Of a DNA stretch of 56,733 bases, positions 17,375 to 55,796 are shown piece after piece. The first letter of the stretch is position 1, and each line of letters begins with the position of its first letter. Under the pieces are notes generated by a model that saw only the letters and a list, made by a program, of their open reading frames with translations, made no database searches and was not told where the DNA came from. A program made the position numbers and the translations under genes. The stretch comes from Flavobacteriales bacterium (GTDB lineage Bacteria > Bacteroidota > Bacteroidia > UBA10329), in NCBI GenBank assembly GCA_018402015.1, contig JAGYJL010000009.1, forward strand, positions 1-56,733, read 5' to 3'.

Positions 17375-17765
17375 CACAAAGCATCTTCCTCGGTGTGTTG
17401 AGAGGTGCGGGTCAGCCTAAGTGGCCAGCATACCGCATCACGTCATTGCGAAACATTTCTTTTCCGAAATGTTGCGGCAATCTCCTTCTTGTACCCAGTA
17501 TTAAAGCACAAAGCGCATCTTCCTCGGTGTGCTAAGGTGCGGGTCAGCCTAAGTGGCCAGCATAACGCATCACGTCATTACAGGAAACATTTCTTTCCGG
17601 AAATGCCGTGGCAATCTCCTGCCTTAGCTGCATTGCTAATGGGGCATCTTCCTCGGTGTGCTGAGGGTCAGCCTGGAGGGCCAGCATACCGCATCACGTC
17701 ATTGCGAAACATTTCTTTCCGAAATGTTGTAGCAATCTCCTGCCTTAGCCCAGCATTAAGCACAA
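17375..17765. repeat. Three tandem copies of a ~130-bp repeat
   Basis: The segment 'CATCTTCCTCGGTGTG' ... 'GGTCAGCCT' ... 'GGCCAGCATA' ... 'CATCACGTCATT' ... 'AAACATTTCTT' ... 'GGCAATCTCCT' occurs three times in a row, starting near 17375, 17506 and 17641. Each copy contains the imperfect palindrome CGTCATTGCGAAACATTTC / GAAATGTTG-GGCAATCTC. A related single element is present at 55797-55845. No coding function is evident. Confidence 0.85.
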
Positions 17766-17779
17766 ACACAGCCCCAAGC

Positions 17780-18165
17780 ACCCTCATTTGAAGTTCTGTT
17801 TTTGATTTTTGATGCTCTCCTACAACTTTTAAGGCTTAATCATTAACAGAACTATGCTAGAACTTTTTAAAGCTCTGTTTTTCCGTAACAGAACCATGGT
17901 AGAACTTTTTAAAGCTCTGTTTTTCAATAACAGAACTATGCTGCAACTTTTTCAAGCTTTGTTTTCTGTGTAATATAGGGAACTATGGGGTGGGAACCTT
18001 TTTAAAGCTTTGTTTTTCCGTAACAGAACTATGGTAGAACTTTTTAAAGCTTTGTTTTTCCGTAACAGAACCATGGTAGAACTTTTTGAAGCTTTGTTTT
18101 TACTTCAGTTAACTACCTGACGGGTTTTTAATGCTTGGTTTTTGCGTCAGTTAGCAACGGAGGTG
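17780..18165. repeat. 42-bp minisatellite, about 7-8 units
   Basis: The core 'GTAGAACTTTTTAAAGC' followed by 'TTTGTTTTTCCGTAACAGAA' recurs with starts near 17824, 17861, 17903, 17945, 17995, 18038 and 18080, with a degraded unit after that. The period is 42 bases in most units, with 37- and 50-base exceptions that may be sequence errors. Forty-two is a multiple of three and the plus strand can be read as a 14-residue repeat (NRTMVELFKALFFR), but no start region or flanking gene supports translation. Confidence 0.85.
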
Positions 18166-23892: not shown

Positions 23893-24214
23893 AGCATTTG
23901 GACAGAAAACGGACCCTGCTGATGCAAGTTTGCAAGCTGTGCCGTAAAGACCTCCGATCTTGCACGTGTTCCAACACACTGCCTGTCCAGAATAGGACAC
24001 CATCTAGCTGAGATAATAAGTATCTGCGCTTCTCGCCTCTTGAAGAAGAGCACCGCGCCATACGGCCGCTGCTAGATGTTGCACAACGCTTGGCGCATTG
24101 CAAAATCTTCTGGAATGAACTGAATGAAGCCGCAGTATCAGCTCAACTGAACCCTGCTTGCTTCGCCTTCATTACCTAGCTGAGAAAGCCTTCGTAAAGC
24201 GTAGTAATAATAAC
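23893..24214. repeat. ~310-bp direct repeat, left copy
   Basis: Aligns with 27854-28162 in the same orientation. Long shared runs include 'CCAGAATAGGACACCATCT', 'AAGTATCTGCGCTTCTC', 'CTTGGCGCATTGCAAAATCT' and 'CCTTCATTACCTAGCTGA'. The last part corresponds to the 3' end of a methyltransferase gene in the right copy; here only a remnant ('TTLYEGFLS' on the reverse strand) remains. It brackets the ArsR-ArsG operon on the left. Confidence 0.85.
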
Positions 24215-27853: not shown

Positions 27854-28162
27854 ATTCACTGTAAACCCCCGCTGGCGCAAGTTTGCAACTGTGCTGTAAA
27901 GACCGACCTTGCACGTGTTGCATCGTATCACTCGTCCAGAATAGGACACCATCTGGCTGATGGCAATAAGTATCTGCGCTTCTCACTGCCCTTGAAGAAG
28001 AAAGACCACACCATACGGCTGCTGCTACACAAGCTGCAAACAATGCTTGGCGCATTGCAAAATCTTCTGAATGAACTGAACAGCTTCTATCAGCTCAACT
28101 GAACCCCGCTTACTTGCCTTCATTACCTAGCTGATAAGTTCGTAAAGCGTAGTAACAATAAC
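27854..28162. repeat. ~310-bp direct repeat, right copy
   Basis: Second copy of the repeat at 23893-24214, same orientation, about 4 kb away. It overlaps the last 36 bases of the methyltransferase gene on the reverse strand. The plus strand has an open run ('KYLRFSLPLKKKDHTIRLLL' in 27842-28102), but the left copy does not keep this frame, so coding is doubtful. Confidence 0.85.
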
Positions 28163-35761: not shown

Positions 35762-36819
35762 CCCGATATTTTAAAGGCAATTTGCGAAACCCGTTTGGTT
35801 TGTCCGTCCTCAAGCACCAATTGCTGGGCAGACAAGTTCTCAAATACTTCCTGCATGTTCTTAACAACACCGGCTGGCACGTTCTTTTTCAAAAACTCAT
35901 GCATCAGATCATCGCAATTCCGCTCATTTGCCTTCTCATCCAACAATTGCTTTAGCTCAAATCTGTTCTCAATACGCTGCTGATTATCTGAGAAGCGTTC
36001 ATCTTCAGCTAAACCATCTAAGCCGAGCACGTTAAAAAGGGCAATACACTGCGCATTGGAACCAACCGCCAATACGATCATCTTATCGTCTTTGGTTTTT
36101 AAAATCTCACCATACGGTGCAATATTCGGATGAAGCGAACCAATGCGCTGTGGAATGTGACCGTTCATTAACCAGTTGCTAGCCTGATTGGTAAGCGCAG
36201 ATACAGCTGCATCGAAGAGCGAAACTTCAACCAAGGCTCCTTGTCCGGTCCTTTGTAGTTGAAGGAGCGCAAGTAGAATTCCTTCCTTTAATTGATGAGC
36301 AGCCAACACATCAACGAGGGCCACGGGCATTTTAGTGGGCTCACTACCTGGGTTACCATTCATGAACATATAACCCGTTTCGGCCTGTAGCACCACATCA
36401 AAAGCAGGGCGGTTATCGTCTGCTCCGAAACCAGTGATGTTCCCATAGATTACCTTCGGATTAGTTTCGGATACTGATTGATGGTCCAGACCGAATTTCT
36501 CTGCTTGTCCGCTTCTGAAGTTGGCAATAATGATATCTGACTGGGCGGCAAGGGTTTTAACCGTTTTCAGGTCTAATGCATCGCTTAGATTCAGGAAGCG
36601 ATGCTGTTTTCCATAATTGACAGAAGCGAAATAAGCGCTTTCGGCAGCGTTCGCATCTTCCGAACCCAATTTCCAACTTCGAGTAACATCTCCACCTGTT
36701 TTCGGATTTTCAATCTTGGTTACATCTGCACCAAGTTCAACCAAAAATGTCCCAACTGCCGGACCGGCCAAAACCGAAGCCAGTTCAAGGACCTGAAGGC
36801 CTTGCAGCGGCTTATTCAT
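35758..36819 (-). CDS. CaiB/BaiF class III CoA-transferase family protein
   Basis: 353 residues. It starts 'MNKPLQGLQVLELASVLAGP', the usual opening of class III CoA-transferases and alpha-methylacyl-CoA racemases. Next come 'LGADVTKIENPKTGGDVTR', 'ANFRSGQAEKFGLDH', 'YGNITGFG', and the catalytic Asp region 'PVALVDVLAAHQLKEGILLA', then 'GQGALVEVSLFDAAVSALTN'. The family moves CoA between carboxylic acids or racemises 2-methylacyl-CoAs; the substrate cannot be told. It is a little shorter than typical members (about 390). It overlaps the start of elaA and the end of the phospholipase-like gene. Confidence 0.9.
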   Translation of the reverse strand: MNKPLQGLQVLELASVLAGPAVGTFLVELGADVTKIENPKTGGDVTRSWKLGSEDANAAESAYFASVNYGKQHRFLNLSDALDLKTVKTLAAQSDIIIANFRSGQAEKFGLDHQSVSETNPKVIYGNITGFGADDNRPAFDVVLQAETGYMFMNGNPGSEPTKMPVALVDVLAAHQLKEGILLALLQLQRTGQGALVEVSLFDAAVSALTNQASNWLMNGHIPQRIGSLHPNIAPYGEILKTKDDKMIVLAVGSNAQCIALFNVLGLDGLAEDERFSDNQQRIENRFELKQLLDEKANERNCDDLMHEFLKKNVPAGVVKNMQEVFENLSAQQLVLEDGQTKRVSQIAFKISG

Positions 36820-37804
36820 GCTCTCGACCTTTGATGCCGTCTGAGCCTTTGACCTTCAGCTCCAACTCTATCATTTCCTCCTGCTCTTCTGGAGAAATTT
36901 CCTTGTCATACAATTTCTTCAGATCGGGCTGACCCGCATTGACCCAAGCGGTGTACCACAGACTGCCAATAGAATGAATGGCCGCGCGCATTCTTCGCTC
37001 TACCATGCCATTCAAGCGCTTGTGGTATTCTTCCGAATATTCTTGCGAATAGACCTTCATGAGAACCGATCCTCGGTTTTCCATTGCGTATTTGCGATCG
37101 CTCGGCCATTCCATATTCAACTCAGCCTCAAAAAGTAGAACGCTGTCTTTAGCAGCATGACTTACCTCCACAAAGTCCCAAGCAAAGTTGAGCGGGTCGT
37201 CTATGTAATCAGCTCTTCCAACCAGAAAATCATACTGATCGGAGAACAATTCTGGCAATCGGCTTTCCCAAAAACCATGAATACCGCGCTGATCGGTCAT
37301 TCCACCATTGTAATTTTCGGTAGTGTGTAGCGGCACATGCGCATCTGCTATATAGTGCCCGATCTCTGCCGAGTTACGCAGTATTCGGTCGAGATTCCCT
37401 TCCGAAAAAGCCTTCGTTAAGCGATACACCATTACATCAATATGCCATGGAACAATGCCATAGGCCTGCAGCGTGTCCTCAGTGTACTTCTGAACGGCCT
37501 CATTCCAATTGCGTGGCATTTGGTTAAAGGCATCCATTCCTTCTCCAAAATGATCAATGTCAATGTAATGCCTCGGTGCCTCATCCTTTACAGCATAGCG
37601 CCTCTTGTCTGGATCTACAGCATGCTCCGTTACATAATTGAGATTGCGTTTATAGAAGCCGATCATCTCTGGCGGAAGGGTGAAAGCCGCCAAACGGTTA
37701 ATGCGCTTGTGCGCAAAGAAGCCCCACGAAAAAAGCATGTTGCTGCTAAAGGGAACCATCAGCAACACAACCAATACAAAACGAAGGAGAAAGCGATTCA
37801 GCAT
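36812..37804 (-). CDS. Zinc-dependent phospholipase C / S1-P1 nuclease-like protein
   Basis: 330 residues, with a signal peptide (first about 25 residues, 'FLLRFVLVVLLMVPFSS'). The mature protein starts 'WGFFAHKRINRLAAFTLP', and carries 'HYIDIDHFGEG', 'NSAEIGHYIADAHVPLHTTE' and 'HGFWESRLPEL'. Those His and Asp residues are the zinc-binding pattern of the zinc phospholipase C/S1-P1 family, in which the mature N-terminal Trp also binds zinc. The likely location is the periplasm or outer membrane; the substrate (phospholipid or nucleic acid) is unknown. The C-terminal 40 residues are charged and extend past the family domain. Confidence 0.85.
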   Translation of the reverse strand: MLNRFLLRFVLVVLLMVPFSSNMLFSWGFFAHKRINRLAAFTLPPEMIGFYKRNLNYVTEHAVDPDKRRYAVKDEAPRHYIDIDHFGEGMDAFNQMPRNWNEAVQKYTEDTLQAYGIVPWHIDVMVYRLTKAFSEGNLDRILRNSAEIGHYIADAHVPLHTTENYNGGMTDQRGIHGFWESRLPELFSDQYDFLVGRADYIDDPLNFAWDFVEVSHAAKDSVLLFEAELNMEWPSDRKYAMENRGSVLMKVYSQEYSEEYHKRLNGMVERRMRAAIHSIGSLWYTAWVNAGQPDLKKLYDKEISPEEQEEMIELELKVKGSDGIKGREHE

Positions 37805-37838: not shown

Positions 37839-37912
37839 TTACTCCAAAGGAACCAACTTCCCGTCTTTTAACACGGGAATAACATCCGTAATGTCTCGCT
37901 GCAGGCAGTATC
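37839..37912 (-). repeat. Duplicated 3' end of comB
   Basis: This segment repeats the last ~60 bases of the comB gene, which lies 718 bases to the right. A run of 47 bases starting 'ACCAACTTCCCGTCTTTTAA' is identical. Read on the reverse strand it gives 'YCLQRDITDVIPVLKDGKLV' then 'PLE' and stop, whereas the intact gene ends '..GKLVRL'. It is an untranslated gene fragment, with the MNT-HEPN pair between the two copies. Confidence 0.92.
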
Positions 37913-37931
37913 TCTTTCCAATTCAATCAGT

Positions 37932-37939
37932 TATCTTTG
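37932..37939 (+). promoter_or_regulatory. Possible -7 box for the MNT-HEPN operon
   Basis: TATCTTTG fits TAnnTTTG and lies 4 bases before the ATG at 37944, so transcription would begin at or next to the start codon (leaderless mRNA). No -33 TTG is obvious at the usual spacing. Confidence 0.35.
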
Positions 37940-37943
37940 TTTC

Positions 37944-38234
37944 ATGTCAACACGTGATGACATCATAAAGAAACTGAGCGCTTTTAAAGCAAGTGTAGCT
38001 GATCGCTACCCTATTGCTTCTTTAGGCTTGTTTGGGTCGTTTGCCCGCAATGAGCAAAATGTTGACAGCGACATTGATATTTTAGTTGAGTTCAATGGAA
38101 GCGTTGGTTCAGAATTCTTCGTTTTGGCAGACGAGCTAGAACAACAACTTGGAACTAAGGTTGATTTAGTTTCTAAAAAAGGCATCAAACCAAAGTATTT
38201 GTCTTCCATTCAGTCGGATTTGATTTATGTCTAA
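37944..38234 (+). CDS. mntA: MNT-domain nucleotidyltransferase antitoxin
   Basis: 96 residues of the minimal nucleotidyltransferase family. The motif 'GLFGSFARNEQNVDSDIDIL' gives the GS-x10-DxD active site, complete for catalysis, and the end 'VDLVSKKGIKPKYLSSIQSD' is typical. In characterised MntA-HepT systems the enzyme neutralises the HEPN toxin by adding AMP to a tyrosine of the toxin. Its stop overlaps the HEPN start by 8 bases. The pair sits between two copies of the comB 3' end, so it is probably an inserted module. Confidence 0.92.
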   Translation: MSTRDDIIKKLSAFKASVADRYPIASLGLFGSFARNEQNVDSDIDILVEFNGSVGSEFFVLADELEQQLGTKVDLVSKKGIKPKYLSSIQSDLIYV

Positions 38235-38559
38235 GCGAGACAACCAGCTACTTATTGGAGATATGCTGGAAGCGACAAAGAAAATTCGCTCCTATACTTC
38301 CGGTTTCAACTTTGAAACGTTTGTTGAAGATGACCGCACGATTGATGCGGTAATTAGAAACTTCGAAATCATTGGTGAAGCAGCCAATCGAGTTCATCCC
38401 GACTTTCAGGCAGCAAATCCAACAATTGAATGGCATAAGCTACGTGGATTCCGCAATCGATTAATACATGATTACTTCGGAGTGGATTATGAAATTGTGT
38501 GGCAGATAATCGATACCGAATTAAGTAAACTCATTGAAGAGTTAGAGGAAATTGCTTAG
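38227..38559 (+). CDS. hepT: HEPN-domain toxin (DUF86, HepT-like RNase)
   Basis: 110 residues, all alpha-helical, with 'FRNRLIHDYFGVDYEIVW': RNRLIHDY is the R-x4-H-x-Y motif of HepT, where Arg and His form the RNase site and Tyr is the site AMPylated by MntA. The N-terminal 'IGDMLEATKKIRSYTSGFN' is typical of DUF86. It overlaps the MntA gene (8 bases) and ends 4 bases inside the convergent comB end. The pair should act as a toxin-antitoxin module. Confidence 0.92.
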   Translation: MSKRDNQLLIGDMLEATKKIRSYTSGFNFETFVEDDRTIDAVIRNFEIIGEAANRVHPDFQAANPTIEWHKLRGFRNRLIHDYFGVDYEIVWQIIDTELSKLIEELEEIA

Positions 38560-39269
38560 AGCCGCACCAACTTCCCGTCTTTTAACACGGGAATAACATC
38601 CGTAATGTCTCGTTGAAGGCAGTATTCTACATCTTTCTCTAGCTTGAGGTGCGCCAGTCGTTTGCGATGCGAACAGCTCTTCAGGAAGCTCATCAGGTTT
38701 TTGCGGCCTGTGCGATACACGAGGCTGCTGGCATTGGCGCTATCGCAATCGGAATAGAACTTGCCGCTATTCAGTAATAGATTAGTAAGTGCACCTGCAA
38801 AGAGGCTGTCCTCCATGTTAAAACGGTCTTTCCATCCTGCACAGAAAATAACCACATCCTTTCCTTGCATTTTCAAGTGATCGGCCAAGGACTGCAGGTT
38901 CAAAAACGAACCAATAAGCACGGTATCGGCACCTTTTGCAGCAATGTTAATAGCGCGTGTTCCATTGGTGGTTGTCAGTGCAATTTCGCGCCCACGGATG
39001 TTCTCATTCATATAGGAGAATGGGCTATTCCCGAATTCAAATCCTTCCACCACTTCCCCGTTCCGTTCGCCACCAGCAAGAAAACCTTGCTTTCCCAATT
39101 CTTTGGCCTCCTCTATGGTGGAAACAGGAATAAACGACTTTGCACCATAATGAAAGGCTGTGACCATGGCCGATGTGGCGCGGAAAATATCTACCACAAC
39201 CACGATGCAATTAGGCTTTGCAAACTGCTCAAACAAGGGTGGCGAAAAACAGACTTCTACTTGATTCAT
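38556..39269 (-). CDS. comB: 2-phosphosulfolactate phosphatase (ComB family)
   Basis: 237 residues with 'CIVVVVDIFRATSAMVTAFH' (metal-binding Asp), 'GGERNGEVVEGFEFGNSPF' and 'GREIALTTTNGTRAINIA', the conserved blocks of the ComB family, Mg-dependent phosphatases of 2-phosphosulfolactate in sulfonate/coenzyme M-related metabolism. In bacteria without coenzyme M its role is open. The C-terminus is 'YCLQRDITDVIPVLKDGKLV' then RL; a second copy of this end lies at 37839-37912 and probably preserves the original ending '..LVPLE'. Its start shares one base with the preceding gene's stop. Confidence 0.88.
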   Translation of the reverse strand: MNQVEVCFSPPLFEQFAKPNCIVVVVDIFRATSAMVTAFHYGAKSFIPVSTIEEAKELGKQGFLAGGERNGEVVEGFEFGNSPFSYMNENIRGREIALTTTNGTRAINIAAKGADTVLIGSFLNLQSLADHLKMQGKDVVIFCAGWKDRFNMEDSLFAGALTNLLLNSGKFYSDCDSANASSLVYRTGRKNLMSFLKSCSHRKRLAHLKLEKDVEYCLQRDITDVIPVLKDGKLVRL

Positions 39270-52177: not shown

Positions 52178-53809
52178 TTACTGTTTTACCAACTTCTGTG
52201 TAGCCCAACCCTTCTCAGTAAGTAGTTGCAAAATGTAAATACCAGAGGGCTTGCCAGTAATATCAATTACCTGATTGCTAGCAGCATTTGTATTGGAGAA
52301 TAGCAACTTGCCTAGGGCATCAAAGACATGATATTCTGCAATGTCGGCTTCATCAATTCGGAATATACCGTTGCTCGGATTGGGGTAAACCGATACCTCA
52401 TCTGAAGTTTCGTTCTGAACCTCAATGTCAGTAATAGTACATGGGCCTAAAACCCCATCGGCACAAACATTTTGCGCACGACCATTGCTGTTCCATGTTA
52501 TAAAGGCCCCACCTGCACCATCTGAAATGAGTCGCGGTAAAGATTGATTGCCCGCTGCAGTGCATATCGCAACCCCATCAGTAGTCCATTGCCCTACTCC
52601 TGAATTATTTAAACGTTGGGCATAAATATCATATGACCCACTACGTTCATCATACCAAGTGAAAATTGCACCTCCTGCGTCATCGGAAATTAGCTGCGAC
52701 CCTGTTTGATTGTCTGTTTCTGTGGAGACGGCAACGCCATTAGCCGCCCATTGCACTATTCCATTACTATTTACACGCTGCGCGTAAACATCATCATCGG
52801 TACCGCTACGCGTATCATTCCAAGTTATGACCGCACCTCCTGCGTCATCAGAAGTCAGTTGAACAGCTAATTGGTTACCAGGCGCTGTGCATACAGCCAC
52901 CCCATTGGTGGCAAATTGAATTACACCAGAGCTATTAATTCTTTGGACATAAACGTCTGAAGCTCCATTACGATTGTCACTCCAAGCAATAATTGCACCG
53001 CCCAATCCATCCGCGGTCAATTGAGGATATGATTGGTTGACTTGTGCCGTGCAAATTGGCACTCCATTTAGCGTCCATTGTGCTATTCCTAAGCTATTGA
53101 TGCGCTGGGCATAAATATCATAGTTGGCTCCGCCACGATTGTCCCACCATGTAATTATTGCCCCGCCAGCACCATCTGAAATAAGCTGAGGAGATTTCTG
53201 GTAAAGAGTCGCATCGCATACCGCTACCCCATCAGCAATCCACTGAACTACTCCCGAACTATTAATTCGCTGGGCGTAAATATTGTCTGCATTACGCGGA
53301 TCCTGCCAAGTGATTATGGCTCCACCAGCGCCATCTGAAATCAGCTGGGGAACAGATTCAGGACCATAAAATGTACAAATACCCACCCCATCACTGGTCC
53401 ATTGCGCTACTCCTGAACTATTTATGCGTTGCGCATAAATATCAACGTTACCACCACTACTATTACGATTATCAATCCAAATAATAATTGCACCACCCGC
53501 TCCATCGGAGGTCAGTTTTGGAGTTTCTAGGCTGTAAGTAGCATTACTGACAGCGACCCCTGAAGCGCCCCATTGCACTGTACCTGAACTACTGATGCGC
53601 TGGGCATAGATACCTCCAACTGCAATCTCATACGTAATGATAGCCCCTCCCGCACCATCAGAAATCATTTGTGGATCGCTATATCCACTATTCGTAGAAA
53701 CAAGATTATTTATGGCCGGATTAGTCGACCATTGAGCTTTGACCCCATCAATTAGAAATGGCGAATTAAGAATAAGAAACGAGATGAGAAGGAGTAACTG
53801 TTGTTTCAT
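52178..53809 (-). CDS. Secreted repeat protein with T9SS type A sorting domain
   Basis: 543 residues. Signal peptide 'MKQQLLLLISFLILNSPFLI'. Then about eight repeats of roughly 52 residues with the core 'DGAGGAIITW' ... 'DIYAQRINSSGVAQW' ... 'GVAVC', likely a beta-propeller-like structure. The last ~75 residues are a T9SS C-terminal sorting domain: 'VSVYPNPSNGIFRIDE', 'YHVFDALGKLLFS', 'DITGKPSGIYILQLLTE' and 'ATQKLVKQ'. It would cross the outer membrane through the type IX system and be anchored or released. The domain identity of the repeats is unknown. It lies inside the pigment cluster but has its own terminator. Confidence 0.92.
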   Translation of the reverse strand: MKQQLLLLISFLILNSPFLIDGVKAQWSTNPAINNLVSTNSGYSDPQMISDGAGGAIITYEIAVGGIYAQRISSSGTVQWGASGVAVSNATYSLETPKLTSDGAGGAIIIWIDNRNSSGGNVDIYAQRINSSGVAQWTSDGVGICTFYGPESVPQLISDGAGGAIITWQDPRNADNIYAQRINSSGVVQWIADGVAVCDATLYQKSPQLISDGAGGAIITWWDNRGGANYDIYAQRINSLGIAQWTLNGVPICTAQVNQSYPQLTADGLGGAIIAWSDNRNGASDVYVQRINSSGVIQFATNGVAVCTAPGNQLAVQLTSDDAGGAVITWNDTRSGTDDDVYAQRVNSNGIVQWAANGVAVSTETDNQTGSQLISDDAGGAIFTWYDERSGSYDIYAQRLNNSGVGQWTTDGVAICTAAGNQSLPRLISDGAGGAFITWNSNGRAQNVCADGVLGPCTITDIEVQNETSDEVSVYPNPSNGIFRIDEADIAEYHVFDALGKLLFSNTNAASNQVIDITGKPSGIYILQLLTEKGWATQKLVKQ

Positions 53810-55560: not shown

Positions 55561-55599
55561 AGTTATGCCCGACCAAGCGATAGGTCGATAGCTCTTGTC

Positions 55600-55614
55600 T
55601 CCGCCTGAGGCGGA
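55600..55614. repeat. Short palindrome TCCGCCTGAGGCGGA
   Basis: Stem TCCGCCT/AGGCGGA around a central G. Also present with central T at 16560-16574 (TCCGCCTTAGGCGGA). A dispersed element; function unknown. Confidence 0.75.
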
Positions 55615-55621
55615 TTGACGG

Positions 55622-55724
55622 CTTGTCGCTTGTCGCTTGTCGCTTGTCGCTTGTCGCTTGTCGCTTGTCGCTTGTCGCTTGTCGCTTGTCGCTTGTCGCT
55701 TGTCGCTTGTCGCTTGTCGCTTGT
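55622..55724. repeat. Heptanucleotide array (CTTGTCG)n
   Basis: About 14-15 uninterrupted copies of the 7-base unit CTTGTCG, 103 bases. Such arrays change copy number by slippage. It lies about 340 bases before the ACP gene end on the other strand and about 390 bases from the upstream gene; no reading frame of a known gene crosses it. Confidence 0.9.
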
Positions 55725-55796
55725 AATAAAACATACAGCGAAAATATTGAATTTTTCGAGCGGTTGATGTTATCAGGTGAAAAAAGTTACGTCTCC

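Follow-up and report, generated by a model that had tools for sequence, protein, structure and literature searches.

A toxin-antitoxin-like gene pair between two copies of a comB gene end points to repeated gene gain by gene-end recombination

How did a two-gene MNT-HEPN module come to lie between two copies of the 3′ end of a single comB gene? The locus that raises this question lies in a window (the whole stretch of DNA that was analysed) of 56,733 nucleotides from an uncultured lake bacterium of the Flavobacteriales, in a genus represented here by metagenome-assembled genomes (MAGs) only. The genome with the window's insert is hereafter referred to as G000. The features of the locus are as follows.

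36812-37804, minus strand: zinc-dependent phospholipase C/S1-P1 nuclease-like gene (PF00882, E 1.2e-6).
37839-37911, minus strand: outer (orphan) comB 3′ end with its stop codon, containing the repeat copy 37852-37911.
37932-37939, plus strand: promoter-like box TATCTTTG, a match to TAnnTTTG just before the MNT start.
37944-38234, plus strand: MntA-like MNT antitoxin gene, 96 aa (PF01909, E 2.9e-15).
38227-38559, plus strand: HepT-like HEPN toxin gene, 110 aa (PF01934, E 1e-30).
38566-38625, minus strand: inner copy of the 60-bp direct repeat, which is the in-frame 3′ end of comB.
38556-39269, minus strand: comB-type gene (2-phosphosulfolactate phosphatase family), 237 aa, the functional copy (Pfam PF04029, E 1.5e-75).

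The repeat copies, 37852-37911 and 38566-38625, are in direct orientation and identical at 58 of 60 nt (97%), with two mismatches and a longest identical run of 47 nt. The initial annotation had described such a duplication of about 60 bp around the MNT-HEPN pair, which is indeed present; it had put the copies 718 bp apart, and we measured 714 bp from start to start. This was the sole repeat of its type flanking a gene when the 56.7 kb window was scanned, and the 60-nt comB end, searched against the genome (E 2.9e-25 and 1.5e-22), had no match elsewhere. In frame, the outer copy reads ..YCLQRDITDVIPVLKDGKLVPLE-stop, with the stop codon at 37839-37841, and so ends in ..KLVPLE, while the inner copy forms the current end of comB, ..KLVRL at the junction. 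KLVPLE had been taken for the native ending of comB but is not conserved, the relatives showing KLVRLN, RLVLLK or KLIRLE. The fit of the module is tight, with just 32 bp between the outer copy and the MNT start codon and an overlap between the HepT and comB stop codons. Between the comB ends lie the MNT and HepT genes only, and the insert encodes no integrase of its own.

Orthologues of comB were found in 50 of the 59 relatives searched. The box ahead of the MNT gene matches TAnnTTTG, the Bacteroidota -7 promoter motif, and comparable boxes precede MNT genes at two other loci, L033 (TAACTTTG) and L187 (TATCTTTG). The RX4HXY motif of the HepT-like protein (RNRLIHDY) and the GSX10DXD motif of the MntA-like protein, a relative of PDB 1wot, are both intact. 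Matches to the curated NCBIfam equivalogs, HepT_toxin NF047751 for the HepT-like protein (E 6e-13) and NF047752 for the MntA-like protein (E 4e-12), were under the cut-off, the two scores being 46.1 and 48.6 bits against a cut-off of 60. The module most likely works as an MntA-HepT (type VII) system, in which HepT would be an RNase silenced by MntA through adenylylation of the tyrosine in RX4HXY. It shares with the described type VII systems (PMC7641770, PMC11586414) the two adjacent genes, MNT and HEPN, and both motifs, but it differs from them in scoring under the NCBIfam cut-offs.

The sister species preserve the locus in its uninterrupted state. In G001 (locus L036) and G006 (L037), an uninterrupted comB with a single comB end is followed by the phospholipase-like gene, which by synteny is the native downstream neighbour of comB; this supports the initial proposal that the module was inserted. 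No loss of DNA is seen at comB in the window, where the phospholipase-like gene still comes next after the orphan, as in the empty relatives. Other species carry other cargo at the same place. Behind comB in G004 come first another MNT-HEPN pair (about 35% identical) and a second comB end, then the gene of a secreted repeat protein and a third comB end, and only then the phospholipase gene. In G003 the order after comB is about 270 bp of non-coding DNA and a comB end, then the Ada and hydrolase genes with a third comB end behind them, and finally the phospholipase gene. G002, G005 and G007 have other neighbours of comB. With at least five different inserts across three species, the comB locus is a serial insertion site with varying cargo. 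The analysis turned up no donor genome in which MNT-HEPN comes directly after comB, and no viral contigs bearing comB ends.

The initial annotation had recommended a search for the same arrangement with other cargo, and such cases were found not only at comB in G003 and G004 but also at many other genes. We scanned 2.05 Mb from G003, G004 and G008 together with the window for direct repeats and added targeted loci, among them L118 and L128, which were reached via HepT relatives elsewhere in the genus. The automated count gave 12 events for the 2.05 Mb of the genus, of which 10 were clear and the other two, a tRNA and a palindromic repeat, were false positives; the control gave 0 events in 0.6 Mb of other Bacteroidota, a sample too small to call the pattern genus-specific. 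The cases in G004 involved QueG, ABC-F, LeuRS, a PaaE-type oxidoreductase, OmpA, MurB, a serine hydrolase and the starts of VWA and FadJ, and those elsewhere DnaG in G008 and a 126-aa gene in G003; the QueG and ABC-F sites are single-copy in other congeners. At L128 (G004), MNT-HEPN is flanked by repeats of the 3′ end of a large secreted-protein gene plus its terminator. Across the sites the cargo was often PIN or MNT-HEPN, and it included PIN toxins with partners, a Schlafen AlbA_2 protein, a methyltransferase, an acetyltransferase-like pair and secreted proteins. The repeats of these events were 44-149 bp long, and the search returned none of the same type of 150 bp or longer.

The junction between the MoxR and VWA genes was likewise used in several species. 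It is empty in G000, G002 and G006 and filled with PIN in G004 and with MNT-HEPN of the same type (85% HEPN identity) in G003 and G008. Orphan VWA starts are found in G004, where the neighbours are intact, and in G008, whose junction (L118) holds several inserts including MNT-HEPN, with copies of the VWA start and the MoxR end. In G003, MNT-HEPN lies within the native intergenic sequence without an orphan, which, from its sequence context, looks donor-like, being the arrangement expected of a donor. The start codon of the functional VWA gene is TTG in all three species that have an insert upstream of it (L141 9606, L118 3368, L187 1501), but ATG in the empty-site species and in the orphan starts.

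Repeats of other kinds were also encountered. Of the direct repeats that the survey yielded, many were judged to be tRNAs, paralogues, or palindromic or dispersed repeats and were discarded. Imperfectly palindromic repeats of about 60-145 bp (ACAATGCCTAAAAGTATTGCG..CGCAATACTTTTAGGCG), similar to the attC sites of integrons or to REPINs, come after single genes in arrays, at the positions listed here.

L249 140-260, 797-903 and 2404-2524, and L237 103-160 and 769-826 (G008): imperfect palindromic repeats.
L182 1081-1225 and 1639-1783 (G003): imperfect palindromic repeats.

Arrays of small genes and Rhs-like core fragments occupy L133 2299-5206 (G000, contig C112) and L120 3371-6689 (G003); the spacer repeat CTCAAGTCCGTGGAAGTGCGCTAGGTGTA is common to both species, and MNT-HEPN genes lie inside both arrays. 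The window itself contains a tandem array of more than ten GCTTGTC heptamers (55593-55739), imperfect repeat clusters of three copies at about 130 bp (17406-17759) and six copies at 42 bp (17821-18142), a repeat of about 162 bp in seven to eight copies that probably encodes a repeat protein (52493-53668), and a direct repeat of 58 nt, 81% identical and 3.9 kb apart (23954-24011 and 27903-27960).

The manner in which the functional and orphan copies differ bears directly on their origin. Relative to the ORF boundary of the functional gene, the similarity between the copies ends somewhere from 31 nt inside it to 1 nt outside it in 15 of 16 events, and within 10 nt of it in 12 of the 16; the other edge of the orphan falls at a variable distance inside the ORF. 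Third codon positions account for 101 of the 137 differences between the copies (74%), close to the 70% found between congeneric orthologues over the same stretches. A decaying non-functional duplicate would be expected to show about 33-45%, and the excess is significant (p = 1e-11) against the 45% figure, itself a rough, unfitted estimate. Since this excess matches that of orthologues, the copies appear to have diverged as working genes before they were joined. Copies within a genome are 86-97% alike, and nearly all sampled congeners are more distant from either copy than the copies are from one another, so that the donors would be close relatives; the exception is comB of G003, whose main copy is equally close to two congeners as to its own orphan. 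Some orphans have decayed, with frameshifts in comB-c and OmpA of G004 and a premature stop in comB-b of G003.

From these features, we consider it reasonably probable that the MNT-HEPN pair entered through homologous recombination, with the 3′ end of comB as the anchor. The donor DNA would have come from a related strain with MNT-HEPN behind its comB, as a short fragment that comprised the module and about 60 bp of the comB end. No recipient DNA would have been lost on its integration, for which the simplest route is circularisation of the fragment and a single crossover within the short homology; alternatively, one end may have been joined illegitimately inside comB. The functional comB would thereby have gained a donor-type tail abutting the cargo, and the recipient's own tail would have been left as the orphan before the phospholipase-like gene. 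The same process may have acted at many gene ends in the genus, and toxin-antitoxin cargo may be over-represented among the survivors because it resists loss. The codon-position evidence agrees with the initial suggestion that comB remains functional thanks to a gene end brought in by the module. The comparison with a specific island carrying a replacement 3′ end does not extend that far: there is no recombinase, each locus has a repeat of its own that is invariably the end of the gene at that place, the cargo is not constant, and the mechanism appears general rather than tied to MNT-HEPN or comB. A ComEC-type competence protein was found in 8 of 9 genus genomes, a search that also matches, for example, E. 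coli, which makes it weak evidence of competence.

Several observations sit uneasily with recombination of this kind. One is that no donor genome for the window's insert was found. If fragments were random, cargo genes should often be truncated, yet most of those here are complete, with short flanks. Longer homology should recombine better, yet repeats above about 150 bp are absent, and an excision bias is needed; the missing long repeats may reflect their faster loss by recombination. Moreover, all the genomes are MAGs.

The principal alternative is a true insertion with a long target duplication, in which a module behaving like a mobile element would have duplicated about 60 bp of the recipient comB end. 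The close likeness of copies within a genome is in its favour. However, two copies made from one target should differ neutrally, and the third-position bias is orthologue-like instead; the edges fall at ORF boundaries rather than running into intergenic DNA, and there is no transposase. The ORF-boundary edges and the third-position excess argue, on sequence grounds, against a transposon-like target duplication, which we regard as unlikely. Capture of the module by end-joining into a staggered break was rejected, since Ku was absent from all 9 genus genomes searched.

We give a low probability to a metagenome assembly chimera, that is, a misjoining of strain contigs running from comB to the cargo and from comB to the phospholipase gene. 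The exclusive reliance on MAGs, repeats (44-149 bp) near the read length and copies resembling alleles of two strains would all suit such an error, but the junctions contain no N, four independent MAGs show the arrangement, at shared sites, the cargo is complete at the junction, and several orphans are decayed, unlike intact strain alleles. A site-specific cassette system acting in trans on gene ends as attachment sites, analogous to an integron array, would account for insertion at the same sites in several species (comB in three, MoxR/VWA in three), the serial arrays, the whole-gene cargo and the nearly common TACTGCC position at which 3 of 5 orphan comB ends begin, but it is very improbable, given that the repeats are wholly different between loci with no shared core motif found, that the inserts lack a recombinase, and that the common left edge could be inheritance or chance with n=5. 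There is little likelihood of a genus-dedicated machinery that inserts whole-gene cassettes at the terminal 50-150 bp of a target gene, by which any core gene end could seed an integron-like array.

Taken as a whole, the sequence pattern points to repeated gene gain by gene-end recombination without transposase or integrase. It is relevant to the spread of toxin-antitoxin and other small modules without transposons or integrases, and in this genus many insertions can be compared with empty alleles in sister species. If the reading is right, short gene-end homology between strains would be a common entry route for new genes, marked by leftover tails.

Among known systems, the closest resemblance is to insertion with long target duplication, as reported for the restriction-modification genes of Helicobacter pylori (Nobusato et al. 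2000), as far as it is outlined in PMC1643837 and PMC3874152. According to these outlines, an addictive-type gene or pair likewise lies between target-derived direct repeats of the order of 100 bp, there is no transposase, and relatives carry the empty one-copy allele. The present cases differ in their cargo, which includes MNT-HEPN, PIN and other genes, and in forming serial arrays. Their copies also differ in the manner of coding alleles, with the similarity ending where the ORFs end; this suggests recombination between diverged gene ends rather than target duplication. The codon-position test separates the two and could equally be used on the restriction-modification cases in the literature. 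In E. coli, a single crossover of recircularised molecules gave rise to 56 of 60 clones, with partial duplication of the target gene end (PMC3240628). Foreign DNA was there, too, added without loss and flanked by partial gene-end duplications, but those events were products of laboratory conjugation with duplications of 109-950 bp in sequenced clones, whereas ours are natural, 44-149 bp long and between diverged alleles. A similar circular-fragment model, including chimeric repeats, was put forward in an Arabidopsis study (PMC2869330). Homology-facilitated illegitimate recombination (HFIR) and the T6SS immunity-gene arrays of Vibrio cholerae (PMC5361080) share the one-sided homologous anchor, and in the latter successive inserts also push older gene ends downstream. 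However, HFIR usually deletes recipient DNA of similar size, and the neighbours here are intact, at comB as at MoxR/VWA of G004; the anchors here are the ends of housekeeping genes, not of effector genes. An integron cassette would call for a common attC family and IntI; the repeats here are local gene ends that differ between loci, and inspection of the comB ends by eye revealed no attC consensus, CAAC..GTTG occurring in G000 without conservation in the other copies. Unlike genomic islands with a tyrosine recombinase, the insert codes for no integrase. What the present cases add to the known ones is the codon-position evidence, the edge at the ORF boundary, the finding that several species have inserts at the same sites, and the large number of core genes affected within a single genus.
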